Below are positions 7,290-38,633 of a stretch of 64,000 nt of DNA, piece after piece (positions within the stretch are counted from its first letter, which is position 1; each line of letters opens with the position of its first letter). The notes below the pieces were generated by a model, which saw only the letters and a program-made list of their open reading frames with translations, was not told where the DNA came from and did no database searches. Origin of the DNA: Ceratodon purpureus (taxonomy: Eukaryota; Streptophyta; Bryopsida; Pseudoditrichales; Ditrichaceae). The position numbers and the translations under genes are program-made. The stretch spans positions 14,480,517-14,544,516 of the forward strand of contig CM026426.1 in the NCBI GenBank assembly GCA_014871385.1, written 5' to 3'.

Positions 7290-10200
7290 ATGGCAGCCTC
7301 CGAGAGTGGGTAAGTTGTCCAGTCGGCTGTCCGCCGACGCTCCCCTTCTTGAGTCCTTCAAGTTTCCGTTTTCTCGCATGGGTTTCTCCCTCCCGTCGGC
7401 TGTCCGCCGACGCCACCCCTTCTTTTGTCCTTCATGTTTCCGTTTTCTCGCATGGGTTTGTCCCTCCCGTCGGCTGTCCGCCGACGCCACCCCTGCTTTT
7501 GTCCTTCGTGTTTCTGTTTTCTCGCATGAGTTTGTCCCTCCCGTCGGCTGTCCGCCGACGCCGTGACCCCTTCTTTTGCCCTTCATGTTTTGTGTTCTGG
7601 CGCATGGTGTTGTTCCTCCTGTCGGCTGACCGCCGACGCCACCCCTTTCTGAGTCCTTCATTTTTCTATTTTCTCACATGGGTTATTCCCCCCGTCGGCT
7701 GTCCGCCGATGGGGAGGGCGTGTCCATCCGCCCCGTCGGCTGTCCGCCGATGGAGTGAGAATCTGATGGTCTAATCTTGTGATTCTAATTTTGCAGGGCG
7801 AAGGTCGACTCCACTGCAAAACCAAATGGGTTACGGTGGCTCTGTGACAAGGTTGTTGATCCTGAAGTAGAAATACTCGCACGGGGCTTGAAACCGAGGG
7901 TGACATTCCTCGCTGATTCGAAGATAACGGAGTGGGGCATCACCTGGCGTGACACTCCCATGTCGCAGGGCTTCGTGACCAAAATAGGTCAGAAGCAAAT
8001 GGCAGGTGGACCAAGATTTGAGATTATTGGTGCCAGGGAATGCGAGGATAACGACAACGTGTTCTTGGTGTTTGCATCGGTTCCTGTCGCGGAGGGCACA
8101 CCAGTGGACTGCTTCGCGGTTGTAATTCCGGTTGAGAAGTGCATGGACGGCTTGTGCTCTAAAGAAGTACAGGATGCGGCTACTTGGGGCAGGGGCGAGA
8201 ACATAGCTGTTGAACAGATACTCGACGTGATTGATACGCTCGGGGACAAAGTGATGGAAGAGAAGACGAAGAACTCGGTTAAGCCTTCAGCAAAGAAAAG
8301 AGGCGGCCGCAAGTCTGCTGTAGAAGCGGGCACTGGTACAGTCACCCCCGAGACCGGAGAGACACAGACGACAGGGGAGTCATCGAGAAGGAAGAAGGGA
8401 AAGGCAGCGGCTGCTGAGGGCGAGGGTGGGAAGAAGAAAGGTGGGAAGAAGGAAGAGAAGAAGCAGACCGTGGCGGAAGCTCTCATGCTCGCAAACAATC
8501 TCACTTCCAAAACAAAGGACTCCGACGTCCTTGCCATGTACCAGACGTTGGAGGAGGGACTTGGGCACTGCTTCCCCAACGGGCAACGTGCCCTTCCTTG
8601 TCAGATTCCATATAACAGGATGCACATAGCTCCCGACGAATTCAAGTATAGAGCGATATTCAGGAAGAGGCAGGATCAGATAAGTCTTTTCTACAAAGGA
8701 CTTGGAGCAATCCGGAAGAAGCCCGAGCTGTACTGCCTTCCTATGAGTGGTGACCCCAGAGTAAAGGATCCAGTGACAAGTGAGATTAAGCTTAAAGGCT
8801 TGGAAGGACTTCTTCGACCTTGGCATGCCCTAAATATCAAGTATTCACTTACACTGGATGACGGCACATCTAAGCTGGTACCTTGGTATGAAGATGAGGG
8901 CATCCACTGGTACATAATTGGGGGCCAGCACACGTTTGAGGCTTGTCGAGAACTGGGAGAGAAGGAACCACTGGACTCTCCTATGCGGCAGTATTACCTT
9001 AACCACGACATCATTCCTGTATATGCTGATAACAAGGATACCCTCATTAAGGTCTCTAACGCATTAAACATCGAGGTGAAGGATAAAGTCGCCGAAGTAA
9101 GTTTCAGGTCCCAGCTGGCGAAGATGCGCGCCAAATGGATCGAGCGGGGGAGGATCGACAAGAAAGATGACTACAGCGCATGGAAGGTAATTCACATCTT
9201 CCTCTTTTCCTGTTGTTTCCATGTAGTTGAAAGTCGTCGGCGGACCGCCGACGCTCAAGTGGTTCTGCGTATTGCAGAAGTGGGATTTATTTATCAATGT
9301 CATTTTCTTCTTCCTTGCAGGAGTTCTGCAAGGAGTACCTCAGTCCGATTCTCGGAAAGTCCCCTACGTCCCAAACCTTCAAGTTGCCCTTAGTCTTTGT
9401 GTCTGACGAAACATACAACGAGTGGCAACTGGTGTTCGACGCCTGGGAGGAGGGGAGGATCATCGGGGAGGACGGTCTGAAACCAGGATTTCCCCCAAAG
9501 CCAGCCCGCCGGGACATAACATTCAACGACATGCAGTACGTGATCGGTCTTCGGGACCACGAATGCAAGAGGCTGGCCAAGGAAATTCTGGACCTTAAAG
9601 TGTACGTCAAGGTCACTGGGAAAGAGGTGGTTCAACGGGATGGAACATCAGTGGAGAATTGGTGTAAGCGTGTGAAATTCGAGTATGTTGTCCGGAACGA
9701 GCTCATGTGTATTTACAGGGGCTTTGCACTGAAGAAACCAGGGACTAGGAAGCATATTGAGTGGACCATGGATGACTGGAATTCTCTTGAAGTCGAGAAG
9801 GGGTTCAATGATACAATGGTTAGTAATATTCGGGCTGACTTGGAAGATAGTCCTGAGGGGAAGGAGTGGCTTAAGGGACGGAATCATCCGCTCACGCCGT
9901 CGCAAGGGCCAACACGAGAATTCTTCAAAGACATTGTGCAAAAGTACAGAAAATCGGATGTGGACCAGTCTTCGCAGTCGTCTGTACAGTTCGATGTTCG
10001 GATTGCAGAGGACCTGGGTGAAGTGTGCACAGCTCTTGACGTTGGCGGAGCATTCTCCTTCAACAAGGCACAGTATGAGATGTTCGTGGTCTTTGGCTAC
10101 AATCCAGCGGGAAAGGAGATGCCTAACATGCGACAACAACACGTTATAACTGTCGCTGAGAGGATTCACCGTGAGGTGGAGGAGGAGGTCATTCTGGATG

Positions 10201-11971
10201 GGGAGGTAGATACAATTAAGGTGAATAAGCTTGTCACCCCATCCTTGTGGCTACTCGATGCTGAGTGTAATCACACTCTTCAAGGCGTGTCAAGGCTGAC
10301 GAGTAATTCGTGGACGGTTCATACTATGCAGTACTTCCCTGATAGTTCCGCCGGGTTTCAAAGGTGTTCTCTCATTGACTCTAGACCCAAGGTTCATGTG
10401 TCCGTTATGTATCCAAGAACAACGCTCGGGGATGCATGGAATACCTTCTCGGACTTCACTGGTTTGAAACGTCCGCTTCCTCCCTATGTGGACGAAGGAG
10501 AAGATCATCTTGGGGAGGATTGGTCTAATGGAGACTGCCACGCTAGTTACTCTTTCCTCCAATCTCTTCTGGAGAAAGCGATGCAGATTGAGGACGTTCG
10601 GGTGATCAATTGCTGGGGAGGGGGGAACGTCACGGCCCTCGCTCTGGTAAGTTACTGCAGTCTCTTCTGGTGCCTTCGCTGTTTGCTCACCGATCGTCGG
10701 CGGGCAGCCGACGCTGATTGAATCCTTCGTGTTTCTTGGGTAGAAGATTTCCTTAACCGTTTCGTCTTGTTCTGCTGCAGAAAAACCATTTGACTGTAAT
10801 TGAGATCGTGCGTACCGAGGAAGAGAGATACGAAGCGCACTGTCGGGTTCGGAATATGACGTTCATTCCGGGCGTTTATAACGTGCCCGTCCAAGCTCCA
10901 GTTCAGACCACGCAGTCTGGGGCCGGGCCGTCTGTCCCCGCCTCTGCTAGAGGCAGGACTAGCTCTCTCACGGCTGCCGACTTGGGTGTGAATGCGGAGG
11001 AGGCCCATTTGGTCGGGAAGGGTGGATGTATGGGTTCGGGGAAGACTGCGGGGGTTCCCTCACAGATTTTTCAGGACTCCGACGACGATGTCGACGAGGA
11101 GCCACCAGATGTACCCGACCCAGACGTTGAAGATGAAGCTACAGATGGTGAGGAACAGCTAAGAAACGAGGACGACCAAGCTGAGGCTTTCATTGCAACT
11201 GGAGATGCAGAGGTAGAGGAGCGAGACACGGAGGAATAAGACTATGAACCAGAACCCGACGAATTACCACTGGAAGAATCGAATCCTCGTTACGTGAACC
11301 CACCGATGTCGCAAGTTCTAGGGGAGCAAGGAACTGACTCCCTCAGCTTCGGTATTATTTCTCCTACATTTCAAGAGCAGGAGACTCCTCTCGCCGATCC
11401 AGAACGTGATTTAGACCAGGCGGGGCGTCCAAAGAAGATGCAGGTTCCTCTAGCATCGAGGCCTGACGATGAAGTGGTTCTCCGTGTCCAGAAGACAACC
11501 CAGGAGCCTGCAGTGAGCATTGAAGGGCATGTTCCTCCTGCTGCCGTCGGCGGGCAGCCGACGGCAGACGAGCAAACCTCATCTAACCCCTCTGCCAAGA
11601 CCAAGTTGACAGGGAAGTCAATCGCATTCGTCACTCAAGGTGTGAAGGGCGCAACTCGGATGATTGGCCCGGATGAGAACCCTCTGGTGAAGACACGATC
11701 AATGAAGAGAAGTAAGACCGATGGTACTGCGCAGGATTCCTCTCTTGTGGGTAACTTATCCCGTGATTCCTCAGGGGTTCAGGAAGGGGAGGAGTCCTCT
11801 GGGAAGGGCAAACGGAAGGCTGCTTCGAAGAAGACTTCCTCCAAGAAGGGCACATCTGGGGATCTGCTCATGAGTCCCAGGAATGTGGACGCTCCAGAGG
11901 ACGTTCTGTCACCTGTGCGGGCATCCAAACGGGAGCCTAGGCCGAAGAAGCACAAAGGTGGAGGTCAGTGA
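7290..11971 (+). CDS. ParB-like / DNA-methyltransferase-like protein, in-frame TAA
   Basis: Exons 7290-7309, 7797-9186, 9321-10646 and 10781-11971, all bounded by GT-AG sites in matching phase. The start ATG at 7290 gives MAASESG. About residues 150-200 are Lys/Glu-rich and disordered. Near residue 380 WYIIGGQHTFEACREL, followed by IIPVYADNKD and ALNI, resembles a ParB/sulfiredoxin-like core, with the usual Arg after His replaced by Thr. Near residue 693 FDVRIAEDLGE stands where a methyltransferase DPPY motif would be. Near residues 895-930 VRVINCWGGGNVTALAL, then TVIEIVRTEEERY, resembles the SAM-binding motif of permuted (beta-class) N6/N4 methyltransferases. The order matches the minus-strand paralogue at 31.5-38.6 kb. 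An in-frame TAA at 11237-11239 interrupts an acidic linker, and the frame stays open after it to TGA at 11969. A mini-repeat is translated as VGGQPT at 11546. The missing catalytic motif suggests a non-catalytic or nucleic-acid-binding role (inference). Confidence 0.7.
7310..7796 (+). repeat. Intron 1 minisatellite built on the palindromic mini-repeat
   Basis: This 487-bp intron contains seven mini-repeats, starting at 7322, 7395, 7469, 7543, 7621, 7694 and 7735. The first six are spaced 73-78 bp apart. Each is followed by a similar unit (CACCCCTTCTTTTGTCCTTC, then TTCTCGCATGGGTTT). The tandem units end 45 bp before the TTGCAG acceptor. Open reading frames seen across this array on either strand are artefacts of its stop-free composition. 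Confidence 0.9.
9187..9320 (+). other. Intron 2 (134 bp) with one palindrome
   Basis: GTAATT donor and CTTGCAG acceptor, phase 0 on both sides. The single palindrome occupies 9236-9252, beginning at offset 49 from the donor and ending 68 bp before the exon. Length and offset are identical to intron 3. Confidence 0.85.
10647..10780 (+). other. Intron 3 (134 bp) with one palindrome
   Basis: GTAAGT donor and CTGCAG acceptor, phase 0. The palindrome at 10696-10712 again begins at offset 49 and ends 68 bp before the exon, as in intron 2. The rest of the two introns is not obviously alike. Confidence 0.85.
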
Positions 11972-12072
11972 ATCAGGCGGTGGCCCAGTCCATCTTTTAA
12001 ATGCCTACATTGATAATTTAGTGCAGTGATCGGGCGCTAGGATTGTGTTAGATGTTTGTACTGCCAAATATG

Positions 12073-12078
12073 AATAAA
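12073..12078 (+). promoter_or_regulatory. Candidate poly(A) signal AATAAA
   Basis: AATAAA lies 102 bp after the TGA at 11971. It would serve a transcript ending with exon 4. It also lies inside the predicted intron 11964-12203, so using it and splicing to the FCP1-like exon would be alternatives. Confidence 0.4.
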
Positions 12079-12203
12079 TTTTCGGTAAATGCCAAGTTGT
12101 ACGCTTTCCCTTTTTTCAAATAATGTTGCTTGCAAGTCGGCTGTCCGCCGACCGTCATCCTAACCGTCACGTTTGTCCTCTGCTTTGTTTTCTGTCACTC
12201 CAG

Positions 12204-12973
12204 AGTCCGCGGACAAGGAAGTCCATGGAAAACTTCACGAAGATAGACCCAGTGCAGTTCTGGAGCAGGGACCTCCACCTCTGAATCCACTTCACATAGC
12301 CCCGGAACAGGCTGGTACTCAGGTACACGATCCAGTGCTGAAGTACTTTCTGGTTCTGGATATTAACGGCCTGCTATTAGTCCAGACGAAGCAGGGTACT
12401 AGGTGGAGTACTAAACTTAGACCAGGTTTAGAGAGGTTCCTAGAGTTCTGCCTGGACAATTTCGAGGTGGTCTTCTGGAGCTGCGTTCAGGAAAAGAGGT
12501 TCCAGATTCTGTGGACAGCGTTGCAGCAGCGCTGTCCTCGTCTAGATGCCGAAGTGCGCTACAAGTTCGACCAGAGTTTCTGCGAGACTTGCGTACATAA
12601 GGCTAGTAGGGAGTTTTATTTGAAGAGACTCCAGACCCTCTTTGACCTCGATGACGGGCTGAAGGGGACGGGGGCGTCTTCAATTAACACTCTCTTGGTT
12701 GATGATTCCCCTTATAAGAATGTCGCAAACACTCCTTGGAACGCTGTGCACCCTACACCATATACCTTCGAGTCGAAGGAGTCGGAAAGTAAGAGGAATT
12801 ATCTGCTTGGAGAATTGATTCCTTGGCTTACCAGTTTGAAAGAATCCAAACTCCCCATGCCCGAGTACTGCCAGAAACATTCCGAATTCGGTCAGCGTCG
12901 TCTGTTTCCGGGGGATGAAGCTTATAGTCTCTTCTCTCCACACATTGATTGCCCTAAACGAAAGAGAACATAG
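12204..12973 (+). CDS. FCP1/NIF-like HAD module A (acceptor-led exon)
   Basis: The frame has no ATG before the domain and an in-frame TAA at 12161, so this must be a spliced exon. The acceptor is CACTCCAG at 12203. A donor G|GTCAGT at 11963 in exon 4 is in phase 1, and joining 11963 to 12204 gives an uninterrupted frame (KHKGG-E-SADKE), removing the TGA at 11969 with a 240-bp intron. Residues about 48-60 read FLVLDINGLLLV, where the FCP1/SCP/NIF family has D-x-D-x-T/V; the first Asp is kept and the second is Asn. EVVFWS and NTLLVDDSPYKN match later motifs of the family. Loss of the second Asp suggests a binding module rather than an active phosphatase; TIM50-like proteins of the same fold are an alternative. 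It ends at TAG 12971, with AATAAA at 13062. Confidence 0.7.
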
Positions 12974-13061
12974 TAGATGTAGAAACTGTTTTAGAGAGCA
13001 TGCACATGATTCAGTCGGCTGCCCGCCGATGGGATCTTCATGTATTTAGACTTTTTCAGTA

Positions 13062-13067
13062 AATAAA
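13062..13067 (+). promoter_or_regulatory. Candidate poly(A) signal AATAAA
   Basis: AATAAA lies 89 bp after the stop of module A and just after the mini-repeat at 13014, consistent with a transcript end here. Confidence 0.4.
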
Positions 13068-13230
13068 GTTTTCCTCCTTTTAAATATATGAGAACGGAAC
13101 TCAGTGTCGAGACTGTGTATTCTGTCGTGGGTGTCTTATTGTGTCTCCATTTGTACACTAGAGCAAGTATGAATTGTGAGCATGCGATTGATCACCGGAA
13201 TTTTCTTGGAATTTGTCCTTCATTTTTCAG

Positions 13231-14328
13231 GAGTCACTGGAGGATGACGCTGAAATTAAAGTGCACCAGGGACCTTCCCTTCTTAGTATGCTCTTGGAGG
13301 AGTACCCAACATCTCCTGATGGTGATGCTCACAGAGAAGAGTCTCCGGGAGCGGAAGCCGAGAATGAAAGTGATGAGGAGGACGAGTACGACTATCCAGT
13401 CAGCGGGCCGCCGACGCTGTCTGCTGCACATAGCTCTGGCCGGTGTGCGATGGCTTCCACCTCGTTCGTCGAGACCAACGTCGCGATCCCGCGCACCGGT
13501 TCCCCGCGCGATGATTCCGTCAGTGTCAGCACTGATATTATTGCGCGTAATATTGAGGTACCTCTCCAACGATACTACCTTGTCCTTGACATTAAGGGAT
13601 TGCTCATGGCGGAGCACCACGGGTATATCGGTGATGACCAGAAGACAAAAATTCATATCCGGGCTAGACCAGGACTTCTTTCATTTCTAGAGTTCTGCAC
13701 GGCGAATTTCGAGGTAGTCTTTTGGTCCACGGTTTCTGAAAAGAATCTCGATCGTCACTTCCAGAAGCTGTTAGCCATTCATCCTTTGCTCAGGAGCAAT
13801 TACAGACGCCTTCCACGATTCTGGTGTGATATCTCAACAAGGACTAATCCGAATGGGAAACGGGAGTACTTGTTGAAGCGTCTGGATAGACTTTTCTGCA
13901 ACACTAGGCTACTGGCTCGATCAGGTGCCACTGTCCAGAATACCCTACTGGTAGACGACCGCCCTTATAGGAATGTACTTAATCATCCATTTAGCGCTGT
14001 CCATCCTAATTCCTTTTTCTGGGACTCTGCAGAGTGCAAAGAACCTCAACCCACCCCCAATCCCTATTTAACTAGGGTAGTTACACCATTCCTTGCAGGA
14101 CTTAAGCAGTCTGGATTGGATGTCCAGGAGTATTGTAGGAGGAATTCTAGCGTGGGGAAGCCACGTCTTTTTCCAGAATCTCGCGAATACCAGAAGTATA
14201 GGGAGGTTATTCCTTCTCATGCATGCGGGTTTGACGTCCCGGGTAATCCTGGATCTTGGTTTGTGAATTTACCTTGTCCTCCGGAGGCCCCTGGTAGTTC
14301 CATCATCGGCGGGCAGCCGACTGATTAG
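13231..14328 (+). CDS. FCP1/NIF-like HAD module B (acceptor-led exon)
   Basis: This exon follows a strong pyrimidine tract and acceptor (CATTTTTCAG at 13230) in phase 0. It begins with an acidic, disordered stretch of about 110 residues containing a degenerate mini-repeat (13399). Next come YYLVLDIKGLLM (second catalytic Asp replaced by Lys), ARPGLLSFLEFC, EVVFWST and NTLLVDDRPYRNV. It aligns along its length with module A, including the tail (PRLFP near the end). The last codons before TAG are encoded by a mini-repeat (14305), giving IIGGQPTD. An in-frame ATG at about 13288 could serve if this were an independent gene, but the acceptor is a better boundary. Function is unknown; a phosphopeptide or Pol II CTD-related binding role is inference. 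Confidence 0.65.
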   Translation, partial: ESLEDDAEIKVHQGPSLLSMLLEEYPTSPDGDAHREESPGAEAENESDEEDEYDYPVSGPPTLSAAHSSGRCAMASTSFVETNVAIPRTGSPRDDSVSVSTDIIARNIEVPLQRYYLVLDIKGLLMAEHHGYIGDDQKTKIHIRARPGLLSFLEFCTANFEVVFWSTVSEKNLDRHFQKLLAIHPLLRSNYRRLPRFWCDISTRTNPNGKREYLLKRLDRLFCNTRLLARSGATVQNTLLVDDRPYRNVLNHPFSAVHPNSFFWDSAECKEPQPTPNPYLTRVVTPFLAGLKQSGLDVQEYCRRNSSVGKPRLFPESREYQKYREVIPSHACGFDVPGNPGSWFVNLPCPPEAPGSSIIGGQPTD

Positions 14329-14637
14329 AGCCTACATTAGCGGCGCCACTAGTTTTAAAAATCACATATGATACTCTGCACTCTTTAGTTTAATACGCTA
14401 AGACTGTTCCCTTTCTGAACTTCCCTGCACCACACAATTGTTTCCAGTGTTGCAATTCGGTAGTTCTTTTTGTAGATGCATGCATGACATTTCACTTGCT
14501 GCACATTTACCTTTGAGGTTTCTTCAATGCATCGTTTTGTCGGCGGGTCGCCGACGACTTTGAATGTAGTCCATTTCTTTCATATACTTCGTCCTGTTCC
14601 TTGATTTCCTTCACTGATTGCATTTCATATTCTTCAG

Positions 14638-15315
14638 GGTTCCTCGTTTTATTTCAAATGCCTTCACGGTCCACCTCATCATGTCAAGAAATGTATTGTC
14701 CTATGCGTCAATGGCCTTCTCTGCTATGTGGATCCCAGGATAGAGGCTTTGCCATGGGATACGCATCGGAATGTAGTGAAGCGCCCAGGTTTGAAGAAGC
14801 TTTTCGACATGCTTTTCTTGCATTTCCATGTTGGTCTGTGGTCGAAGATGCCCTTGGGAGAACTGAAGCCTTTACTCACACATATTCTGTCGGCCGGTGT
14901 AATGGAGAGGCTGTCCTTCGTGTATAGCAGAAGTGACCTTATCGACCGGGAGAATTTCCCCTGGAGTTATAAGACGTTAGGTCAAGTTTGCTCCAAGGTA
15001 CAGTCTAGAAACGTCTGCAAACTAGATCAGGTGCTATTTGTGGATGTTGACCCGAGGTCATTGAGGAGGACACCAAACTGTATGTGCTACATTCCTTGGC
15101 CTTTTCAGGGTCATCTAAACTTTCCGAACGATGACGGCGTTATACCTAACATTGCTACAGATATCCTTCCTCTGGTTTATCCCTTGCACAAGTTCGGATC
15201 TGTACCGGAGTATATGGCGCAGGCGTGTAGGCCGGGGCAAGTGCACTGGGCAATTGAAGCTGCGAGAAAGTTTGGACGTGCACGAGTGGACTGGACTGAA
15301 GTTTGCTGGGACTGA
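14638..15315 (+). CDS. FCP1/NIF-like HAD module C (acceptor-led exon)
   Basis: Acceptor ATTCTTCAG at 14637, phase 0, and no ATG before the domain. The motif I region reads IVLCVNGLLCYV, so even the nucleophilic Asp is replaced by Cys. Later landmarks are RPGLKKLF, HVGLWSK and VLFVDVDPRSL, the last matching the VDD motif of modules A and B. It ends at TGA 15313. This is the most diverged of the three and almost certainly not a phosphatase. Mini-repeats flank it at 14539 and 15382. Confidence 0.6.
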   Translation, partial: GSSFYFKCLHGPPHHVKKCIVLCVNGLLCYVDPRIEALPWDTHRNVVKRPGLKKLFDMLFLHFHVGLWSKMPLGELKPLLTHILSAGVMERLSFVYSRSDLIDRENFPWSYKTLGQVCSKVQSRNVCKLDQVLFVDVDPRSLRRTPNCMCYIPWPFQGHLNFPNDDGVIPNIATDILPLVYPLHKFGSVPEYMAQACRPGQVHWAIEAARKFGRARVDWTEVCWD

Positions 15316-16638
15316 GTTAGGCGGACTTTTTCGCCTCCAATTTGCACTTCTTCCCTCCTCCTGACCAACATAACACCTTCCATCGGCTGCCCGCCGACTT
15401 GGTCGACCCGTTTGTGCGGCCTTCAAATATATGATTTACTCATTGACCTTACGGCTATGCTTTCAGGGAAATAGTTTTCAGAGTAGGTTATAATGTGATA
15501 GGATTTACGTGAACTTGGTACATAGTGCTGGGTGTAGACTTAATGTTGTAGGACTTCAGGACTCAAAGTGCTACGGGACTAGTTAGTTTAGCGTGTTCTA
15601 TTATCGGCGGGTCGCCGACTCTGTATTGTACATTTCAATACTTGAATCAACATGATATTCTTTAAAGTATTCATTGTAACTCTTATTCTGCATTATATGT
15701 CGCAATCTTCGGGTTCATATATCCATCACTGGCAAATTCTGCCCATGCACATCTCGATGTCTAGTTTTGCATTCCATATTCTGTGGTATTCATGTACAAT
15801 GACACTGTTCATCTGTGGTCTCCATCCATCGGCGGTCCGCTGAGTTCGCATTGGTCATTTTTGAATTCTGGACTTTTTTTTGTCCAGAATTACCTAAATA
15901 TCCCTTGGTGGAGGTTGCATGCAAGATTTTTTTTTATTTTTTGACACAAAGGAATTCCATTGCAAAAGATAGATTACAAGCTCGCATGCAAGAGTCTTTC
16001 ACGCATTGCCGTGGCTACAACACCAGTATCGTACATGGAGAGGATACACAACATACGCAAAAACTAATTAGGGGTAAGGCAGGCACATGACAGCCGTCAG
16101 AGCCAGAATTCCATAACGCAACGCGGACTCGATATCACGACAATGAATGATCCGAGATTTAATGCACGCCGCCAACTCCATTGGACGAGAATCTTACAAA
16201 ATTGGGACTTTATTGGACGTTGCCAGAGCACTGTTCTATACATAGTGAAAAGGGACATAAACCGATAGTAACAACATGTCTAGCAAAGGTTTGTGCAGGA
16301 TTAGAAAAGCCGAGTAATCCAACCTAGGATCACTTTCCGTAAATCAAAAACAGGAACTGCAAAAAAGGGATCTGTGAGACGTAAGTTACAGTGAAGAAAA
16401 GTTCTCAAAATGAAGCTTAAAAACTGCAAAGCTCATTATGCACCGCAGCTCCAGCAGACCCTCAGAAGAGGCAGATTCAAAGAAAGTTGCAATGCATCGC
16501 TGGCGGGTTCATACTTCGACTAAATTGTTCGTTTGAATGCAGGTCCACCCCTTCCATTGCGCGGATACCCGCTCCATTCTAATAAGCCCGTAAACTGTTC
16601 CACTTCATATGGCTCCGTAGTGTCCACTTACAAATGGA
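15316..16638. other. Spacer; last mini-repeats and a hairpin
   Basis: Mini-repeats start at 15382, 15603 and 15828 (degenerate); these are the last in the window. A 10-bp hairpin with a T-rich loop lies at 15864-15891 (AATTCTGGAC / GTCCAGAATT). I see no gene. Confidence 0.6.
15864..15891. repeat. Small hairpin
   Basis: 10-bp arms (AATTCTGGAC / GTCCAGAATT) around an eight-base T loop. Confidence 0.7.
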
Positions 16639-17253: not shown

Positions 17254-17286
17254 GCTACGAGACGATGCGGAAATCAAGAGAGTCAA

Positions 17287-24500: not shown

Positions 24501-24776
24501 GCCAACGTCATGAACATCATCGGGCTCTCTTCTAGGAACTTCACCTCCGCAGTCTACGAACAACCTCCTCACCCACACACTCAGTAACCTGCAAATTTGT
24601 ATACCGTAGTTATTTCGACCACCTAAAGGTCTGTATCCAAAGTGGGCGAACATTCTATCGCGACGGTACACAATAGTCACATTACAAATTCTACACCTAA
24701 CTTGTCTCTGAGGCCTCGCACCTACCACGTCCAAGTCTTGCCACCACTGATCCCATGCCTCTACTCTTCGCGGCAT
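21520..24776 (-). pseudogene. Decayed hAT transposase (DUF659 type)
   Basis: The N-terminal part runs from ATG 24776 to 23217. A BED-like zinc finger (VRCRICNVTIVYRRD) comes first. A DUF659-like catalytic region follows: TICSDGWDNVQ, then VQVCTDNAPNML and GCAAHCLDL. At 23217 the frame closes. Homology resumes in another frame, passes two in-frame stops (about 23185 and 23060) and reaches the hAT C-terminal dimerisation motif near 22900-23026 (EWWDAMGGGARALQ, ACERNWSMYS). Downstream, 22782-22257 is an acidic tail and 22212-21520 a Ser/Arg-rich tail, possibly joined by an intron ending TTTTTCAG near 22250. The copy cannot encode a full protein as assembled. No terminal inverted repeats were found. 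Confidence 0.75.
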
Positions 24777-24815
24777 GCCTGCGACAGAAAGCAAGAATCT
24801 GGAGGGTGAACGCAC

Positions 24816-25800
24816 TATTTAAGGCGAGATGGACCTATTACAGAAATTGCGCCCTACAACGCACTTCTAGCGTCGTTGAACGAGGGTGGAGGGATGGACT
24901 TGCCCTGATTATGTTCCAGATCTCCGATGGAGTTCGGACGGTCCGTTCTAGTGGGCTATGCTTGACCCCTCGAGCACACTTGGGTCTCATGCAGAGGAAC
25001 CTCAGACAAGACCCCAAAGTCCTGAGACACGAGGTGCAAAGAAGGGAGAACAGATCGTGGTGAGTCGCATCTTTTATGGCACTCCCCGAGCGTGTCCGGG
25101 ACCACGAAGCGGAAGATCGCGGAGTTTAACCGGGTGTTGCGGACGAGGTCGGACGAGGGCGGGATCGATGGCGGTCCAGTAACCAGATTCGATTTTGGTC
25201 CGCGTTGTAGGAAAAAGATGGTCAGGATCTGCATATATATGGCACTCGTGTGCTGACATCGGGGAGGTGGTTCGCACTCCGTGAGATTGGCCCATGTACG
25301 GAGATGGATCAACCACGGACGGGCGGACGACCTGAAATCCGATCGATTTGCGGAATGTGGTCACTCCGCAATCGGACATCAACTAGGTACCCCGACGGAT
25401 TAGAGGCTCGGACGTGGTCCGCCGATCGAAACGTCCGCGTTCTGGAATCGGTTGGACGCAACCCCGGGGCAGGACTGCGGCGAAGGCGGACATAGTTGAT
25501 TATAGGGACGATTAAACAATATCGCGCCGTTCTTCTAGAGCACAGGACAGGGGTCGGAACTTTGCGAAACGTAATTGGACTTCGGACAGGCGGATTGTGT
25601 CTCAACAGTGAAAACGGCGCCGGATAATACGAACCTCGCACATCCGGCCTTTGGCAGGAGATTGTGCCGGTCTGGTCTAGCGCGGATGGTGATCCGGTAC
25701 GATCGGATAGGGGCAGCAGGCAACGTACGTTCACATTCAATCCGAGGCAGCGTCGTCCGGCAAAGGGCGAATGGCGGACTATAGTGCGCGAGGTATGCCA
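24816..25800. other. CGGA-rich spacer
   Basis: Short frames overlap on both strands, reflecting the CGGA/TCCG word bias. No domain and no gene supported. It may be the 5' flank of the hAT element. Confidence 0.4.
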
Positions 25801-25803
25801 TGA

Positions 25804-25810: not shown

Positions 25811-25890
25811 ACGGGAAGTGCGATAACACAGGTCCCTTTTGATGCAGTTAGCCCGCAAGTTATTGTGGACGAGTCCTCCCCAGTTACAAG

Positions 25891-26349: not shown

Positions 26350-26724
26350 TTACGAAGTAAATAGTGTCCGGTTAAATACGGAGAATCTCCGTTATCGACG
26401 CAATGCATTAGCAATTAGATAAGAGTTTGGAAGATGCATGTCTGCTTAGAAACTGCACTGGATGGATATTTCCGAAACAGAAAGGAGATATCAAACTACG
26501 GGGGACGTTCGGAATAGCTCCATCATTATAAAACATAAATATACTCTGATCATCGGAAGATCAGCATAATAATAAACGGGGAATAAATATTATAGTAAGG
26601 CCGAAAATTTACGAAAATTCTCGTCCCAGATACAAAATAGTCAGAGAAAGAGAAGGCCAGAGTTAAGCATTCCAAGATTGGTAGTGAGCAAATCATTATC
26701 AGCGGCAACACTCGTCTATTAAAA

Positions 26725-28603: not shown

Positions 28604-29260
28604 CGCTGAAATGCAGTCAAAGTGTCACGTTTCAACGAGCCGTTGCCGAAGTGGAAAATAATGCACCAATTCCTAGAACGACCATGAAGATAAAGCAGGC
28701 GTAGCATAGTACGCCAGTCCATTTGATGGGAGGCGAACCGGGATATGTTGCCGGACATCCGAATTCGATATGCGTCGGACCCGAACTCATGTCGGAACTT
28801 GGCAGTCGAAGGTACGATGTCGGGATAGTGGCCGAACCAGGGTCCGACGACGAGGAGTGCAGGAGAATGTGGCGGACTTCATCGGAGCCGACAGCAGTCG
28901 GATGGCGGATAAGCGCCTTGAGGGATGCCGGAATGCGGACGAGATGACGAAGGCCCGTCGGATGACGGGGCATTGATCCGGCGGAAAGCGGATGTCGGAT
29001 CGGACATCGGACTGGGTATCGGATCGTACAGGGTGGCGCGGACGAAGCGGACTGGTACAAGGGCCCACCAGTATCAGACCACCTTTATCGCAAACGTGGA
29101 CATCGGCTATCCGAGGTGTCGCCGGGGCGGAAATGTATAAGCGAAAATGTTGCCGTAAATATTCGGGCCGTCGCGATCAAGACCGAATGGGACGTCCGGT
29201 CGTGACTGTAAACCGTCGTGACGTCCCGACATTATGACGCGAGAGGGTCACGTCGCGACC
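28604..29260. other. CGGA-rich block
   Basis: Dense CGGA/TCCG words (for example CGGATGTCGGATCGGACATCGG) with short frames on all strands. It abuts and appears to truncate the Harbinger fragment. Confidence 0.45.
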
Positions 29261-29870
29261 GTATAGAAAACCCTGGTTACCATCTATCGCCCCTAATATC
29301 AAAGGAATGCCATGTAATGCCTCAAATCCAAAGGCTGTTTCCCTCATCCTCCCAAGAGTTGGTTTTGGAAAAACTAATGGTCGGAGATGAATTACAATAG
29401 CCTCACAACATTCCCTCTTAACCATAGAAGTTGTACTTAACCCAATGCCATACAAATCTCCAATCATCCGTAATGAATTTCCAGTTGCCAACCGAGACAA
29501 AGTTACGGCAACTCTACACTCAACACTAATACTCTCTCTCAAATGTGTATCTTGCTTCTTCAAAACAAGCCCCATTAGAGTACATAAGAAATTGAACGTA
29601 GATTTACTCACCCTCAATCGACGCTTATATTCCCTCTCTGGAAGTGATCCCAAAAGTGTTTGCTCCAAAAACCCTCCATATCTCTGAAAACGCCAACAAG
29701 ACCTTTCGAAATTCACCCTCTGGCCTTGTGTGATAGATACCGCCATCAACATCATTTGGACATTTTGTTGAAAAATTGCAAGTTTTTGCAATGCCAAAAT
29801 GCCCACAATAACATACTTCATAACCATGAATATCGAAAGGAGCAAAAGGATTTTTTCCCTTCTAGAATCC
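29261..29870 (-). pseudogene. PIF/Harbinger transposase fragment
   Basis: From MDSRREKILLLL (near 29870) the frame reads through RRLRVSKSTFNFLC, LATGNSLRMIGDLYGIG and IPLILGAIDGN, which match the N-terminal helical region and first catalytic Asp of Harbinger/ALP1-like nucleases. Homology stops just after this Asp near 29265, and the rest of the open frame (to 29177) is foreign CGGA-rich sequence. The two later catalytic acids are therefore missing and the copy is truncated. Confidence 0.75.
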
Positions 29871-29914
29871 ATGGTTAAAGAGTGAGAGACGAAAATTTCA
29901 GAAAATACCCCCAT

Positions 29915-30603: not shown

Positions 30604-31116
30604 ATGGGCGATTCATTTGAGGTCGTTGCCTGTGAAACGATTTTACAAGACTTGCTTAAGCGGATGGCGGATGGACCTAACCCCTCGGATCATGTAAGTA
30701 GTACTGCAACACAGGGTTGGACTCCTCTGACGGTATTCACGTTTGAAGACGTTGAGAACGCTCGTGCTGTGTCAAAGCTTTGGAAGCGTGAGATTGACAG
30801 CAGTCCTGAATACGCATGCCTTCGGCTAGCGAGGTGGGATTACTTTTCGTACGAGGATGGCCATTGGAGTCCGAAGGACGAATACAAAGTTAATCGGTTC
30901 AACATCAACTGGAGTGTTTTTAGGAGTTCTTGGAAACATATAAATTCAATTTACAACGACAGGTTAGAGACAGCGTCCCTTGGAGAACTTTGTTGCGTTG
31001 AGTTAGATCAGTTGAGGTCATTGCTATTGGCCAATGGGAATCAGGTCTTAGATGTACCGGAAGGAGAGAAAATTTCTCCGAGAGATGGTATCTGGATCTC
31101 TCACAAGAATAGGTAA
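30604..31116 (+). CDS. Small F-box-like protein, 170 aa (tentative)
   Basis: ATG 30604 to TAA 31114. The segment TFEDVENARAVSKLWKREI resembles the second half of an F-box (a V-x-x-A-R-x-V-S-K-x-W pattern), followed by RLARWDYFSYEDGHW. No Kelch or LRR repeats follow. The last codons (AATAGGTAAC) could be a splice donor, so the real protein may be longer; a piggyBac-like insertion starts 31 bp downstream. Confidence 0.4.
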   Translation: MGDSFEVVACETILQDLLKRMADGPNPSDHVSSTATQGWTPLTVFTFEDVENARAVSKLWKREIDSSPEYACLRLARWDYFSYEDGHWSPKDEYKVNRFNINWSVFRSSWKHINSIYNDRLETASLGELCCVELDQLRSLLLANGNQVLDVPEGEKISPRDGIWISHKNR

Positions 31117-31147
31117 CATGGCTATGGAAATGCAAGATATTGAATGA

Positions 31148-31313
31148 TTAACCCCTAAAGGACAATCTGGCACATTTGGGCTTTTTTTGAATTTGGGCAT
31201 GTACCTATGAATGCGGTTTATATCAGGATTTTCTGAAAAATCCACCTTGCTTTGAAGAGGGGCTGTTTTGAGGCAGTTTTGATGAAAAATACCCTAAGAA
31301 CTTTAGGGGTTAA
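31148..31313 (-). mobile_element. Short non-autonomous piggyBac-like element, 158 bp
   Basis: The element (31152-31309) is flanked by TTAA on both sides. Its left end (CCCCTAAAGGACAATCTGGCA) is the reverse complement of the right end of the 851-bp element at 18.0 kb. Its right end, about 80 bp from CCTTGCTTTGAAGAGG on, is the reverse complement of the left end. It is an internally deleted copy in opposite orientation. Confidence 0.8.
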
Positions 31314-33725
31314 GAAAGTAATTACAGCATTCTATATATTTTGAGCATTTCAGTTATAACATTTCATTGTTCACGTTACATTTTGAGCATTACAGTTGCA
31401 ACATTTCATCATTTAAATACACGGATACGAACTGGAAATGAGGATCATAACCAGTTTAGGGTGTTTGCAGTAGAGTAGACGAAGGATAATGCAATCAATT
31501 CCAATTAAATCAAATCAAATCAGATGAAAACAATGATGGACGGAAGTCTCCTTCAAACTCACAACATGCTACAATTGCTACTTCCACTCTCAGAACCAGA
31601 GGACTCTGAATCTCCAAATACAGCCTCATCATCGACGAATACAAGGGCCCTGGGATCAAAAGTAGTTGGCCAACTAGGAACATATGCAAGCGCTCCAGAT
31701 TGGAGCGCTTGTGCTACGCCCTCTGCATAATCTGGAAGTATATAAGGCTGAATTGGATTGGAATGAAGACGCCACGATGGAATGGACCCGGGCCTTGGCC
31801 TACGTGGCGGTGTTGCCGCAACTACTCTGCAAGAGAAAATCGAGAGTGGTAAGAATAAGTGGGTGAAGATGGAATCAATAAAGAAGCAAAGAGAACTAGC
31901 AAAGTAAGAAAATGTAAAGAAGAACTTACAGTATTTATCTCGTCTTGCTCTCTTTGGAGGTGCATCTTCAACTGCTACCGGTCTAGGATGTTTTGGAGGG
32001 CCTATGGCGGATGGCGTAGCCATATACGGTTTCAGAAGGACGTTGAATATGGCTTCGTCCTCCTCACAAGCTATAATATGACGACCAATACTCTGGCAAG
32101 CTTTGATGGAGGCCCCTGAAACATGTAGCACAAAAAAAAAAATTAAGACTCTGTGGAGAAAATCATAGGAATGGAAATGCGGAAACTGTTAATAAAGGAT
32201 TACTAGTTCCTGCAGACCACTCAAAGACTATATCGCCGGGCTTGGACATCTCCTCAATAAGGCCCCGCATCATCTGAGGGGCTTTCTCCCTTGGCCCTCT
32301 CCACGGCACCTCCCCATTCATGTGCTGCGATTCCACATCGGTGAAGTTGAGAATGGCATCACTCTCGGTAATGTGGAGGTCGTTGTATACGACATCGGAT
32401 TTCTTCGTTTGAAAAGAGAACTTAGATGGAGGATGGCCACCACGAATGAAGACGCGCACCCAGAATCGAAGAGACTGCGAGACATCAAAATGTGTGAGTG
32501 TAATGAATAAGAAAGTTTAGCAGAATGCAAAGACAAGGAACGATAATGATGTACATACCAAGGAGTCAACGATCGTAGGGTGAGCCAAGTGCATTGAAGC
32601 CCCACTAGTCTCGGTGCTGCACGAAGCCATCAACATTAGCCACTTCAGAAATCTTCGAAGCCAGACCTTGGTCGTTGTTGTGGATTACGCAAAGGGCACC
32701 ATCATACTGCAAGAAATGTCTTGCAAATTCGAAGAGGTCCTCCAAATACTCCTTATGACGTCTGTTCCAAGATGGAATGATGTAGGGGGGATTGGATATC
32801 GTAGGAAGCGGAAGATTCTCAGGGATGTCGGCAATGATCAAGTCAAATCCCAAGTGATTCTGCTCTTTGCATCTTGGCGGAACTCGGTTCTCGCGGCCTG
32901 CTCCAAACTTTAGTAAACAAGAAAAAAAGAGTTAGACATTATAAGATTTACAGTAATGTACGTATTGAAGGGAAAGCACGAAGCAACGAATCATACCCTT
33001 CGAACGATGTCTAGAGCCTTGTTCCATTCGTGATCGCCACCCACGTTAGAGAGCTGCTTGTGTCGAAGCAGAACGGAATCCACAGAGGAGTTGATGACAT
33101 GAACCTTTGTGGAATGGGAAGATACAGCGGAAGAGGTAGTATGAGGAAATTGCTTGGCCTTCCTCTGCTCAAGGAGACTTCTGGTGACCTCGGAAGCATT
33201 GATCGAGGAAGGACCCGGCGAAGAAGTGGAAGAAGGCTTCGTAACGACATTACCGGGAGAGGGCTCTGGTTCCTTCTGCTTCGACGCGGAAGACTCCGCA
33301 CCGGTTTGCTGTGATGCCTCTGATAGAGAACGCAGTGTTTTAAGTCGGCGCCCTCTCCCTCTCTTCAGAGCAGATGATTGATCCTGCTGTCCTTTGAAAT
33401 CTTCTGCACCATCCACTGTGTCTTCGACCACCACCTCACCACCATCGTGTAAAGTCTTGATGTCCACCTCCGAGTCAATAGTGAAACCACAAGAGCAATC
33501 AAGATACCAACATCCAGCATCCAAGTGAGGAGCTTTGTTCCTTATCAACTGCTGGGGAGAATAGATACACTGGTCTGAGGTTGTTTGCGTCCAAGCATTG
33601 AAGTGCTTGGGGAGCTGCTGAACGGAGATGGCCCCCTTCAAAACAAGCTCCCGCTTGAAGTACCTAAATGAAGACATGTCAAAGTTTAGTAGCATTGAAA
33701 AATGCGACTAAGTTAGGAAACTAGA

Positions 33726-33790
33726 GCGAATTATACAATGCAAATGCGATTATACAACGCAAATGCGAATTATACAATGAAAATGCAATT
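33726..33790. repeat. Three tandem 20-bp units
   Basis: GAATTATACAATGCAAATGC-like units repeated three times in the intron between exons 8 and 9 of the minus-strand ParB/methyltransferase-like gene. This helps place the end of exon 8 upstream of the tract. Confidence 0.7.
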
Positions 33791-35886
33791 AACTTAGGAA
33801 ACGTATCGGTAAGTAACCCGCTTGACAACTTGAGCTGTTCCAGGGAATTTAGCGAAATTGGACTTCTTGTCAAAGGGTTTCTCAGCCTTATTTCCAATGA
33901 ACGTAGGGAAGGCCTTGTCCCATAACAGAATACGTGAACTCTCCACATAATCGCCTGGCTGTTGGACATCTGGAAATGCCCTCCAATTGATATCAAGGTT
34001 CTCCGCCTTGAATATGTCCTCAACTTCGTTGATGACGGCTTCCTCCAACCGTAAAACAGAATTCAAATAAGTAGCAACGAAGAAGGAATTCAGTAAAATA
34101 AGAAAGCATGTTGTAATTGGAAAAGGTATATTTCGAAACCATACCCCAGCCCAGAAAGAAGCCCTGTTCAACCAAGGGTCGAATTCAGTATCCTTGAATT
34201 CGGGCGGTGGAAATCTGTAAGAGAGTCGGGAACTCAAAGATGAGTTCCACCACCTCAGCCACCGAGCCTTGTATTTGGGCTCAACCGCCGCGGGACAAAT
34301 CTTCTGGAGCTTATCGAGGGACATCTCAGGTTTAGAATTTAGACTGTAATGCCGATTGATCTGCGAGGAGTAGAGAAGTATTAGATAATATGATAGCGTA
34401 ATATTGTAAGAATTCCAAATACCGAATTGAAATCTACCGAAGGTCTCACCTCATTGAGGAAGTCATCTCCATTCCTAGGATTTGCAATTGCCAAGTACTT
34501 GGTGAAGTCCTTTCTCTTAATAGAGTCCACCATTCAATCTGATGCGTTGTTCATGACATCCCAAACCGCAGATGCCGTCTGTTCATCCGCCAATGTCTTC
34601 TCAAGGTAGGCCTTAGCTGCTTCATCCGAGGCCACTGCAATTTCGCGCTGTGGAAAGATAACCAAATCTCAGAGAATTCATAAATGAACGAATTATAACT
34701 TGCAAAGAGTAACAGGAGATTGACTTACTCGGTACAGAAATGCGATGAAAACTCTAGTTGTCAAGGGAAACCATGACGGGTTAGGTGACTTGTTCTTCAA
34801 ACATGCATCAAATTCTTCAGGAGTCAGTAGGTCTTTAAACTCCTCCAGTTCATCACCCCGAATGAGCGGATTTGAGACAATTTTGCTGGGAGATTACTCT
34901 TCACGTGGTCATTCTCAGTCGACCTGAATAGCAAATTAGGCATTACTTAAGTATAAAATATAATCGAAACAGACCTTAATATGGATAACAATTATTCAAT
35001 ACTTAAAAACGTACCAATTGATGTCGTACATGGCGTGAAGGAGATTGCCCACATGGCCGCGGGGTTCAAGTACAATGCAATGCACAGATATGTGCCATGA
35101 TGGGTCGTCCGCATGATACTTGTTTATATGCCGGAGCCATGCGAAGAGGCGGTGATTACCCTCCCAGACAAAAAACATCTTGTGCGAGAACTGCATCCAA
35201 TCCTCATCTCCTTGGATCTCATCATCAAAACAATCACTCGCGGCCCTTCATGAAGGGCTCCAACTAGCCATGATATCCGCCGTAACATTCTTCGTCTGCT
35301 CTTCATTGTTGTACATGGAGATGTACATGACGCGGTCTCCATCTCTATATCCCTTAACAAACTCCCGCTCTAAGTGCTGGACCCCCATTTCACCCACTGG
35401 TCTAACCTTGGCCATTGGGATCATCCTGCACAGAGGCACCATCATTCGAGACTTCGGCCAAGGTTTGATCCTGAGGTTGTTGATGACAGCTATGGAGTCC
35501 ACCTTGTATTGTGTTCGATGCTGCAATTCCCCTTCCATAGCAGTCTTCAAGTCAATCGGACAAAATGGTTTTGCCAACACATCTTGTGTTTGCGTAACCT
35601 GCAAGAAAGTGTGCAAATTAGAAGAAGAATCACAATCATAGAAAGTCATGCAAAGAAGACAAGTATGTAAAGAAAGTAACAATATAATTTGATACTGTCA
35701 TCTCTTTTGTAACAACTCAATTATCATCTGCGCTGGGGAAAACTATCTACGTGATGATCGACTATAGTACTCTTTAGACTGTCTACAGTTCCAGTGACGG
35801 CGCCTCCTCCAAAACCGCCTGGTTTGCTGAACCGGGAACGACAAAATTGCCGGTAGAGCGAACATTACATCGGCTGGCCTTCTCAC

Positions 35887-36195
35887 TCTAATAGGCGAGG
35901 AAGGAGAGGGTGGAGACATAGGCGGTGAGCCGCTAGGAGGGGAAGTGGGCATGTAGGCTGGGGACGTAGGCTCATACACTGGAGACGTAGGCATGTACAC
36001 TGGGGATGTAGGCATGTACACGGGAGAAGTAGGCATGTACTGTGGAGAATGGACCTCGAAAGGTCCACTATCTCCAACTACAGGGTTGGCTACATCACAG
36101 GTACAATAAGGCTGATCAAATGAATCCGAGAGATCGAAAACATTGATAACTGAAATGGTGGAGGTCGCGGACATCTCAGGAGCATCTAAATATAC
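35887..36195 (-). other. Exon encoding Pol II CTD-like heptads
   Basis: This 309-bp exon (acceptor CTACTCTAG, donor GTGAGA, phase 0 on both sides) encodes five consecutive heptads with the pattern Y-(M/E)-P-T-S-P-(V/A/P), near residues 58-92 of the 103. A Pro/Ser-rich tail ([13 protein letters not shown]) follows. The canonical RNA polymerase II CTD heptad is YSPTSPS: here Ser2 is replaced by Met or Glu while Tyr1, Pro3, Thr4, Ser5 and Pro6 are kept. The DNA shows 21-bp periodicity between about 35950 and 36045. Confidence 0.8.
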
Positions 36196-36576
36196 CTAGA
36201 GTAGAAGAAATGAAGAGAGGGTTATATTCCACCTTTAAAAGAGTCGTAAACAATAAATTAAAAAACAGAAGTCAAGTACGAAGAACTCGTGATGTACCTC
36301 GGTCTCAGCTGGAGTTGAGACTTCACGTTGGCTCCCCATATTACCCTCAGAAGACTCCTAATTCATACACAAAGAAATTGACTATCTATGATAAAACAAC
36401 TGTAAAGAGAAATAAATGTGACTAAACAGCCATCAAACCTCCATTCAAAATAAATGTTTAAGACTAATCTAGAAGAAATATAACCTGAAGCACAAGTCAA
36501 ATAACAAGGACACTCCAACAATTTAACGCATAATAAGAAAGATGTTTTAAAAATTGAGGCCATCATTGGTACAGCT

Positions 36577-36915
36577 TTCTAGCAGTACCTCCGGCCGGGG
36601 GGAATCGAACCCAATACTCTCTACAAGCTAAAATGAAATAGCCCCAAGCCGAGCAGCCCAAGGCACCAGAATGAGAGCAAAGATCACCAACACGAACAAG
36701 TCTTAAAATCCCCCTCCCCTACTGTCGTCACAGACAGTAGGATTGGGGGTACTTTTTAAAATGAAAAATTAAAAACATCAATGCTTCTAAAAGCTTGGGA
36801 AACTTGAAAACAAAAACAAAAAAATAAAATGAAATGAATAAGCCCCAAGCCGAGCAGCCCAAGGCACCAGAATGAGTGCAAAGATCACCAACACGAACAA
36901 GTCTTAAAATCTCAG
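36577..36915 (-). repeat. SINE-like repeat with tRNA B-box, and a partial second copy
   Basis: In intron 1 of the minus-strand gene, GGGTTCGATTCC (reverse complement of 36601-36612) matches the RNA polymerase III B box of tRNA-derived SINEs. A 69-bp segment (starting GCCCCAAGCCGAGCAGCCCA) occurs at about 36641 and again at about 36842. No A box was confirmed. Confidence 0.5.
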
Positions 36916-36989
36916 GGCTGAATCTATCTAGCTGCTGTCAAGCTCAAGGCTCAAGGCTGAATCTATGTAGCTGCTTTCAAGCTCAAAGC
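36912..36989. repeat. Short tandem duplication
   Basis: Two copies of a unit of about 40 bp (GGCTGAATCTATNTAGCTGC) lie head to tail inside intron 1 of the minus-strand gene. Confidence 0.7.
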
Positions 36990-38186
36990 AATGCTTACCG
37001 AAGCAGATGCCGACTGTTGATTGAAGGAGACAAAGCGGTATCAAGCAAAGCTTCATTTATACTTGCGTACCCGTGAACATAATAATTCAAAAACAACATC
37101 GACATCCGACCAGGCAGAGCTTGGCACACACAACGACTGGTTGTCAAACAAACCCACCCCAAGAAATCACAATCGATTCCTAACATTACTGTATAGAACT
37201 ACGAGAGCCGGGGTGGTGTATGGACATAGAAAAACCCGCTGCCTCTCGCAAAGTTGATTACTACTTTGACTGACCCGATAAGGCCTGGCTTTTCTCGAGC
37301 TCCCACCCTCTGAAAGCCAAAAGCAGGCGAGCAGGCAAGCACAGCACCACCAAACCATTCCGAACCAATGTCTACCTCAAGCAACCCAAATCCGCACAAA
37401 CCCAAATCCCACAAACCGAAGACACGCAGCAAGAAAGAGCAAGCGAGAAGGCAAGCATAGCAGCCCATGGAGAAACAACAAAGAGGAAAACTTCACATTA
37501 ACAAGTAACGCAACCCCGACTTCCCAAACCTCGACGCATCATCCGCAACCTCCAATCCCCAAATCCAACCCATGATCTAAACACATTCTCCGAATCCCAC
37601 TAAATCCCAAAACCCGAATCGAGGTACATTTGTACCACCCATCAGCCCAATCATTGCCGTACGACCGGATAAACCCAACATTTGAAAGACGACGTAATGT
37701 CACATCAAGAAATTCACACCCACTGTCACATCAAGAGCTGCTGATTGAGGGAGAAACCTCGTCGTCGTCATCTTCTTCATCAACTGGGTCCTCCTCTCTA
37801 GCTTCGGCCCCCTCTGCTGGCTCACTCTCATCTGTTGCTCCGTGCCCGAGCCCTCCAACTCCCGCAACCTCTGCAAGCTCCAGCTCCTCCCCGCCCATAC
37901 CGGCCGCGCCTCCTCCCCAAGGCAGATCTCCCTCCTCCACGCCTCGCCTGAGCTCACCCGCCTCCCGTACCGCCATCGCTAAGCCCCCTTCACCAGCCTT
38001 GAGAATCCGTTCTCTCGCCCTTCTCGCCACGAGTATGAGATGCTCACTTGAATCTCCGACTACCCTTATCCTTTTGTTACTCTACTCATGTAATTAAAAC
38101 AATTTTCAACAGTGAGGCAATTCCGTGAGTTAAAGTCGATCTTTAAAAAAAATTCCTAAGTCAATTACAATTTGGTAAATACTTAC
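36990..38186. other. Remainder of intron 1 of the 31.5-38.6 kb gene
   Basis: GC-rich open frames near 37630-38097 (both strands, Ser/Pro-rich on plus, Gly/Glu-rich on minus) are low-complexity shadows of one another. I call no gene here. Confidence 0.4.
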
Positions 38187-38633
38187 CTTATCAGAGTTAA
38201 AATCTAGATCCAATTGAGAATCCGGTTCCCCTGTTGAAAATTCATTGAATTTGATAGACGGCTGCGGTGACTCCACTCTTTGACTACAATTAAAAACAAA
38301 TTCTTCCGTCATGGCCTCACGTGTAACTCCACTTAAGCGTACCTCCTGTTCCTGCTCGTTATTCCCAACGACCGGGGTCTCTAAAAACTCTTCCTTTCCC
38401 TCCACTATAGAGTCCAGAACGAGTTTACGAATGCTACAAAACTTCAAAGCTATAGGCAGACCTGCTCCTCTCCTTTTCACGGGTGCACTTAAATGGTCAC
38501 CTTTAAATACTACCTTCTTACGTGATGCTCTCCTCTTTCTAGCTCTCCTATTCGTAAAATCTGTACCACCTGGTTTTCTTCTAGGTTTAGGAGTGACATA
38601 AGTGGAGGGAGATGGCCTTCCACTCTGCTTCAT

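Follow-up and report, generated by a model that had tools for sequence, protein, structure and literature searches.

The stretch of Ceratodon purpureus DNA analyzed here (64,000 nt, hereafter the window; GCA_014871385.1, contig CM026426.1, positions 14,480,517-14,544,516, forward strand) corresponds to C6:14480517-14544516 in the 362.5-Mb assembly, in which contig C6 is 110.5 Mb long. It contains two multi-exon genes, termed P and M, both of which are present in many copies in this genome. Gene P and three FCP1-like modules sit within one complete DNA transposon, element F1 (138-15906; 15,769 bp). This element is bounded by an imperfect 26-bp terminal inverted repeat (TIR; left copy 138-163 on the + strand, right copy 15881-15906 on the - strand, agreeing at 23 of 26 bases) and is flanked by the target-site duplication (TSD) GGTG, which occurs at 134-137 and again at 15907-15910. 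The F1 termini end AAGGG. Gene M (31559-38633, - strand) is a gene of an amplified family other than that of P. The original prediction had associated both genes with transcription or with the silencing of mobile DNA; the association with mobile DNA is right, the genes being better read as mobile DNA's own cargo.

Besides gene P, F1 carries a DUF7869 gene (PF25273, E 3e-38; 2381-4406, - strand), the best pieces of which are 48-53% identical to their counterparts in a second transposon family described below (family 2, or F2). Upstream of the DUF7869 domain lies a 725-aa open frame (4355-6532, - strand) that matches the family-2 copies at 30-47% and contains five of the palindromes considered below; this frame and the DUF7869 domain probably constitute one gene. 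The DUF7869 gene runs divergently from gene P and is a candidate transposase.

The exons of both P and M were proposed by manual splicing. For P, the intron-containing gene predicted at 7290-12973 (+ strand) was confirmed. Exon 1 (7290-7309) has the proposed start MAASESG and a phase-consistent splice; exon 2 (7797-9186) encodes an N-terminal domain, a basic linker and a "ParB-like" region with the motif GGQHT; exon 3 (9321-10646) encodes a middle domain and a methyltransferase-like region up to its glycine-rich strand; and exon 4 (10781-11963) encodes the remainder of that region followed by an acidic and basic tail. Exon 4 can be spliced in phase to the first FCP1-like module (module A), and P so joined to module A forms one frame of 1562 codons, which is broken by a single TAA (11237-11239). 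This stop is missing from all six other copies compared and is thus specific to the window copy. The label "ParB-like" stems from the GGQHT motif of P and the GNHR motif of M, which we take to resemble ParB. A ParB-like domain in both genes had been predicted, and it gained no profile support: no ParBc match was obtained for window P or family-2 P in Pfam and other profile searches, nor for M in profile searches, and sequence searches of the PDB gave nothing significant, the best E being 1.6 in one search and the one for M giving no match at all. In P, no match to PF01555 or another methyltransferase profile was found either. Furthermore, a search of 5.8 billion proteins returned no P homologue at E 0.001, within the length limits of the search.

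Copies of P exon 2 are dispersed on each of contigs C1-C13 and on two small ones. At least 92 exist (92 scored out of 608 candidates, including the window copy), which are 92-100% identical, and 80 of these 92 have no stop. The ratio of nonsynonymous to synonymous differences (pN/pS) was calculated for exons 2 and 3 from the window copy and six copies from the more divergent end of the copy list. Within exon 2, the N-terminal domain gave 0.75, the basic linker 1.29 and the ParB-like part 0.56; exon 3 gave 0.45. All six added copies have an open exon 2, and four have an open exon 3. In the sample for exon 4 and module A, consisting of the window copy and six copies from the most similar end of the list, the ratios were 1.53 and 0.88, respectively.

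The CTD-phosphatase-family modules predicted to follow P were verified as three PF03031 matches at 12.2-15.3 kb, all on the + strand: module A (LDINGLLL; 12204-12973; E 3e-13), which is in phase with P exon 4, module B (LDIKGLLM; 13231-14328; E 1e-9) and module C (LCVNGLLC; 14638-15315; E 1e-4, 22.3 bits against a cut-off of 21.8). Each has a close counterpart among database proteins, namely P0004 from a 2.3-kb ENA contig (96% identical to module A), P0003 (96% identical to module B) and P0005 from Ceratodon purpureus (98.8% identical to module C over 168 aa). FCP1-family proteins classically act on the C-terminal domain (CTD) of RNA polymerase II (Pol II), and the catalytic motif of FCP1/SCP phosphatases, DxDx(T/V), needs both aspartates. 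The second of these is gone in A (LDINGL) and B (LDIKGL), and both are gone in C (LCVNGL). Because of these missing residues, dephosphorylation of the CTD-like heptads of gene M (see below) by modules A-C appears unlikely. Plant FCP1-homology proteins belong to the same Pfam family and, wherever BLASTP gives an alignment, share 26-35% identity with module A; two of them, P0023 (Carex) and P0029 (Cicer, "C1271.03c-like"), likewise read LDING, so that the change in module A is common to host proteins. The modules described here are multi-copy transposon genes, and module C is more degenerate than the plant proteins.

The junction between P and module A was then compared in the six other copies. 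The acceptor AG and the donor GT are kept in all six and the exon length in five; the joined frame of exon 4 and module A is open in three, carries one stop in two and has a 13-bp loss in one. Since P0004 and P0003 start, each with a Met of its own, before the acceptors proposed for A and B, P and modules A and B are likely made, at least in part, as separate transcripts, and the modules may be genes in their own right.

We examined six loci with strong FCP1 matches over 30 kb each (C1, C5, C6a, C6b, C8 and C11; about one third of C1 is N). Locus C6b holds a family-2 copy, 22,677 bp long, whose 26-bp terminal repeats agree at every base (26/26) and whose TSD is TTCG; its termini resemble those of F1, the F2 ends reading ATGCC. 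A DUF7869 gene on the minus strand, P-like exons 2 and 3, and two FCP1-like genes occur in this order in C11, C6a and C6b. C1 shows the same order with a match to P exon 3 only, C5 carries P together with the FCP1 pair but gave no DUF7869 match, and in C8 the FCP1 pair adjoins a SWIM gene, with no match to P or M. The DUF7869-P-FCP1-FCP1 order is hence present in four of the six loci, and DUF7869 in four of the five that bear P. Among the five copies that bear P, identity in the long blocks is mostly 93-99.5%. Family-2 P and window P are homologous over most of their length (BLASTP E 8e-17, 21% identity; 24% in a global alignment) and have the IIGGQHT motif in common. By eye, two FCP1 matches (C6:53323991 and C6:4590139) each have a P copy on the same strand at a distance of 3-4 kb. 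These data support the FCP1-like modules as a conserved companion of gene P. Modules are also shuffled between elements, because C8 has a SWIM gene beside an FCP1 pair that is common to family 2 (about 98-99% identical over 3.1 kb). The C8 locus additionally contains a tandem array with a spacing of about 161 bp and 73 palindromic units CCTCGG-N2-CCGAGG.

A further feature of F1 is a set of 28 exact palindromes, TCGGC-N5-GCCGA, dispersed from 663 to 15618. Twenty-one of them lie outside the named open frames, and they occur in all three P introns (seven in intron 1) as well as in the intron before module A. None was found in the window outside F1 or in the 10 kb that precede the window. When up to one mismatch was allowed, the window contained 33 sites versus 0.82 expected. 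Genome-wide, the 17-bp form of this palindrome has 2858 sites and its reversed control three. The 50 distinct sites at the head of the list are all on C1; 49 of them group into three clusters, each with a P copy (C1:1258421, 4089915 and 5725923), and one stands alone. Family 2 has a palindrome of its own, ATCGGG-N6-CCCGAT, with 11 sites in the extended C6b; leaving tandem arrays and AT repeats aside, it also tops the repeated palindromes with 6-base arms in C1, C11, C5 and C6a. Its 20-bp form has 403 genome sites (reversed control, 0), and 36 of the first 50 distinct ones are no more than 10 kb from a listed FCP1 match. The F1 palindrome was not found at the six examined loci. Between F1 and family 2, therefore, the sequence of the site has changed, whereas the gene set and the scattering of dyad-symmetric sites persist.

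What these sites do can be explained in more than one way. They might be transposase sites or hairpins formed in transposition, with P and the FCP1-like proteins serving transposition or copy-number control; subterminal repeats are found in CACTA elements, for instance. In agreement with this, the palindromes extend over nearly the full length of F1, coming close to both its left end (663) and its right end (15604), and the DUF7869 gene accompanies P in all but one of the P-bearing loci. However, the sites spread over the whole element, introns included, instead of clustering at its ends, and we regard this explanation as doubtful, though it is the one to be taken most seriously among the alternatives. 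We favor instead a reading in which P and the FCP1-like genes beside it have accessory roles in a large DNA transposon that carries DUF7869. The palindromes specific to each family would most likely be bound by a dimer of P or of some other element-encoded protein, P being the first candidate for the binder and the DUF7869 protein the second. As VANC does in VANDAL elements, the binder would most likely counteract silencing or drive expression of the element in cis. The FCP1-like proteins would most likely be non-catalytic binding modules for the transcription machinery.

VANC motifs in these MuDR elements of Arabidopsis are family-specific and mainly non-coding, occurring also in introns (PMC5735166). 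The two systems are alike in having an extra gene and short motifs that are scattered in non-coding DNA, family-specific and dense only there. They are unlike in the motifs themselves, which are palindromes of 17-20 bp in F1 and F2 and direct motifs of 8-9 bp in VANDAL.

Gene M, with 13 proposed exons on the - strand, is a decayed copy in the window. It has four in-frame stops (one each in 35598-35015 and 34647-34450, and two in 32907-32559) and a frameshift in the exon at 34923-34729. The exon with its "ParB-like" motif GNHRLFAWL (35015-35598) lacks profile support, as mentioned above. A permuted methyltransferase-like part had been predicted for both genes and is backed by profiles for M only, where a permuted N6/N4 methyltransferase part lies at 31930-32907. 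As had also been predicted, it is split by introns, one of them inside the S-adenosylmethionine (SAM) motif. The C-terminal part of M matches PF01555 (31.5 bits against a cut-off of 26.7, at positions 147-217 of 221), and the methyltransferase part matches the phage family phrog_3008 (1.4e-10); the nearest solved chains, at a weak E of 0.007, are bacterial adenine methyltransferases. Thus, the SAM-binding part of M resembles phage and bacterial N6/N4 DNA methyltransferases (PF01555, phrog_3008) above the Pfam cut-off. M differs from these enzymes in its size (about 1330 residues), its introns and its heptads. Its motif IV region, a DPPY-type motif in such enzymes, reads ADIPE...SNPPY in the decayed copy of the window.

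The family of M is abundant. The genome has at least 395 matches to the methyltransferase part (counted exon by exon; 3143 first-look candidates) and at least 152 to the heptad exon (35887-36195, - strand; 1227 candidates), and six of the listed heptad-exon matches contain a stop. This exon encodes five tandem heptads in the register YxPTSPx, three of them YMPTSPV, on a 21-bp tandem repeat of 4.9 copies. The CTD-like heptads of the original prediction are real, but they lie near the N-terminus (roughly residues 222-256 of 1328) and do not form a tail. Y1, P3, T4, S5 and P6 are retained in most units. Ser2 and Ser7, both present in the Pol II CTD consensus, are missing and replaced in window M by Met or Glu at position 2 and by Val, Ala or Pro at position 7; the heptads scored 18.2 bits against PF05001 (E 0.0029), under the cut-off of 20.3. 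In 12 other copies, picked over the listed range of identity, five Y-led units are kept without exception, and the first three read exactly YMPTSPV in 10 of the 12. Across these 12 and the window copy, pN/pS was 0.162 for the whole exon, 0.087 for the heptads and 0.219 for the rest of the exon. The heptads are under strong constraint, more so than their surroundings.

These values bear on the possibility that all of these genes are neutral passengers, P and the FCP1-like genes having been captured from the host without function and the heptads being a low-complexity repeat. The window copies are indeed broken (M by its stops and frameshift, P by its TAA), P exon 3 is broken in two of the six divergent copies and module A has a pN/pS of 0.88. 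Against these points stand the lower ratio in the heptads than in the rest of their exon, the recurrence of the same gene set in two diverged families and the 80 P exon-2 copies that have no stop. On balance, we find it unlikely that the genes are mere passengers. Our preferred reading of M is that it is an accessory gene of a second amplified family, which may itself be a transposon family, and that its heptads most likely engage readers or modifiers of the Pol II CTD at Ser5, beside a domain derived from a DNA methyltransferase.

A SWIM-zinc-finger-like gene (41451-42959, + strand; PF04434 E 0.014, below the cut-off) is located head to head with M. A copy of M on C9 was inspected together with its flanks (17 kb). 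All parts of M match there at 62-95%, and the SWIM gene is present at the same locus in another arrangement, its C-half being inverted relative to the window. The C9 copy also contains tandem units about 200 bp apart at 9.2-13.2 kb, which match window positions 36623-36911 and lie in a long M intron. No match to the FCP1-like modules of the window was found in these 17 kb, and neither a palindrome of the F1 or F2 kind nor an F1- or F2-like terminus was found in the M block.

The original prediction regarded P and M as paralogues, which the comparison of the two proteins did not support (best BLASTP E 1.6; hhalign probability at most 0.3%, with single sequences and a two-sequence P profile). 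Their similar architecture is all that links the two genes. It had also been suggested that the two act together, the heptads of M being the ligand of the FCP1-like modules of the P element in a ligand-and-reader system that would span two families. Both families are abundant in one genome, the FCP1 family is classically CTD-acting and the heptads keep Ser5-Pro6; moreover, C8 joins a SWIM gene to the family-2 FCP1 pair. However, at neither of the two M loci inspected, in the window and on C9, is M accompanied by an FCP1 module; it is P that the FCP1-like genes accompany, and they lack catalytic aspartates. When the M and FCP1 position lists were compared by eye, two neighboring pairs were seen (6 kb apart on C3 and 14 kb on C6), about what chance would give by a rough estimate. 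We consider such a ligand-and-reader system very improbable.

Taken together, the proposal of two sets of transposon cargo genes, with roles in self-recognition and in transcription as set out above, seems to us about as likely to be right as wrong. Several observations weigh against it. No DNA-binding fold has been demonstrated in P, and among young copies little or no purifying selection is visible in its N-terminal domain (0.75), in exon 4 (1.53) or in module A (0.88); the palindrome binder could equally well be the DUF7869 protein. Seven of the 28 F1 palindromes are inside open frames, unlike the mainly non-coding VANC motifs, and of the first 50 F2 sites, 14 are farther than 10 kb from any listed FCP1 match, ten of these forming two clusters elsewhere on C3 and C6. 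For M, neither element ends (TIR, TSD) nor a transposase was found in the window block or in the C9 copy. A more specific version of the cargo proposal would be that P is a ParB-like clamp on parS-like, family-specific palindromes, which marks the element for expression and has FCP1-derived readers attached, while M elements expose a Ser5-only imitation of the CTD beside a DNA-methyltransferase domain. This version is speculative and rather improbable; if true, it would mean that transposons control both the polymerase tail and the marking of DNA in the nucleus of a plant.

Cargo genes for epigenetic factors have precedents. Genes for TET/JBP dioxygenases or SET methyltransferases have been described as cargo of DNA transposons (PMC12730594), and the elements studied here are alike in having genes of such a kind aboard. 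The cargo differs, consisting of P and FCP1-like genes in one case and, in the other family, of a protein derived from an N6/N4 methyltransferase with heptads. The clade of the recently reported Lanisha lineage makes TSDs of 2-5 bp, a range that suits F1 and F2, and has termini that are mostly CA..TG (PMC12730594). It is also typified by an EnSpm-like transposase. The ends are AAGGG in F1 and ATGCC in F2, and F1, F2 or the M family may nevertheless be Lanisha elements.

No report of transposon cargo made up of P, FCP1-like modules or a heptad-bearing methyltransferase was found in the literature searched, nor any paper on DUF7869. The Ceratodon genome study, which is said to describe Lanisha transposons, may cover part of it. 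If the proposed roles hold, plant transposons would have armed themselves with mimics of the transcription machinery and with self-recognition sites in two independent families. These roles come with testable objects, namely the 17-bp palindrome, whose 2858 copies are found almost only in one family among the sites examined and whose candidate binders the element itself encodes, and a heptad peptide, constrained and in a known register, which offers a handle on its kinases and readers. Furthermore, contig C6, by its size of 110.5 Mb, may be the Ceratodon sex chromosome, in which case the elements might bear on its expansion.

Regarding relatives elsewhere, the search of 5.8 billion proteins gave two M homologues, each covering 4-5% of the query and both being RPB1/RPB2-like proteins with heptads. 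These two, P0001 (RPB2-like) and P0002 (RPB1-like), have YMPTSPA / YAPTSPT heptads near the C-terminus. P0001 looks like a giant-virus-like RPB2 with a CTD-like tail, and both proteins appear viral. A viral origin of the genes in the window was considered and rejected, as no relative turned up when viral contigs were scanned with P exon 2, the DUF7869 protein, module A and the methyltransferase part of M.

The window also contains other elements, and nothing in it exceeded the Rfam threshold. At 23217-24818 (- strand) is a hAT-like transposon gene, its DUF659 domain recognized by PF04937 (E 1e-35); a 45% match to this gene was seen at C11 as well, some 10 kb past the FCP1 pair of that locus. 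An open frame at 29177-29914 (- strand) has the look of a Harbinger-type transposase by eye, with no Pfam match. Finally, a 137-nt inverted repeat (43811-43947 and 50189-50325; 76% complementary, 6.2 kb apart) probably delimits a nested element beside the SWIM gene.

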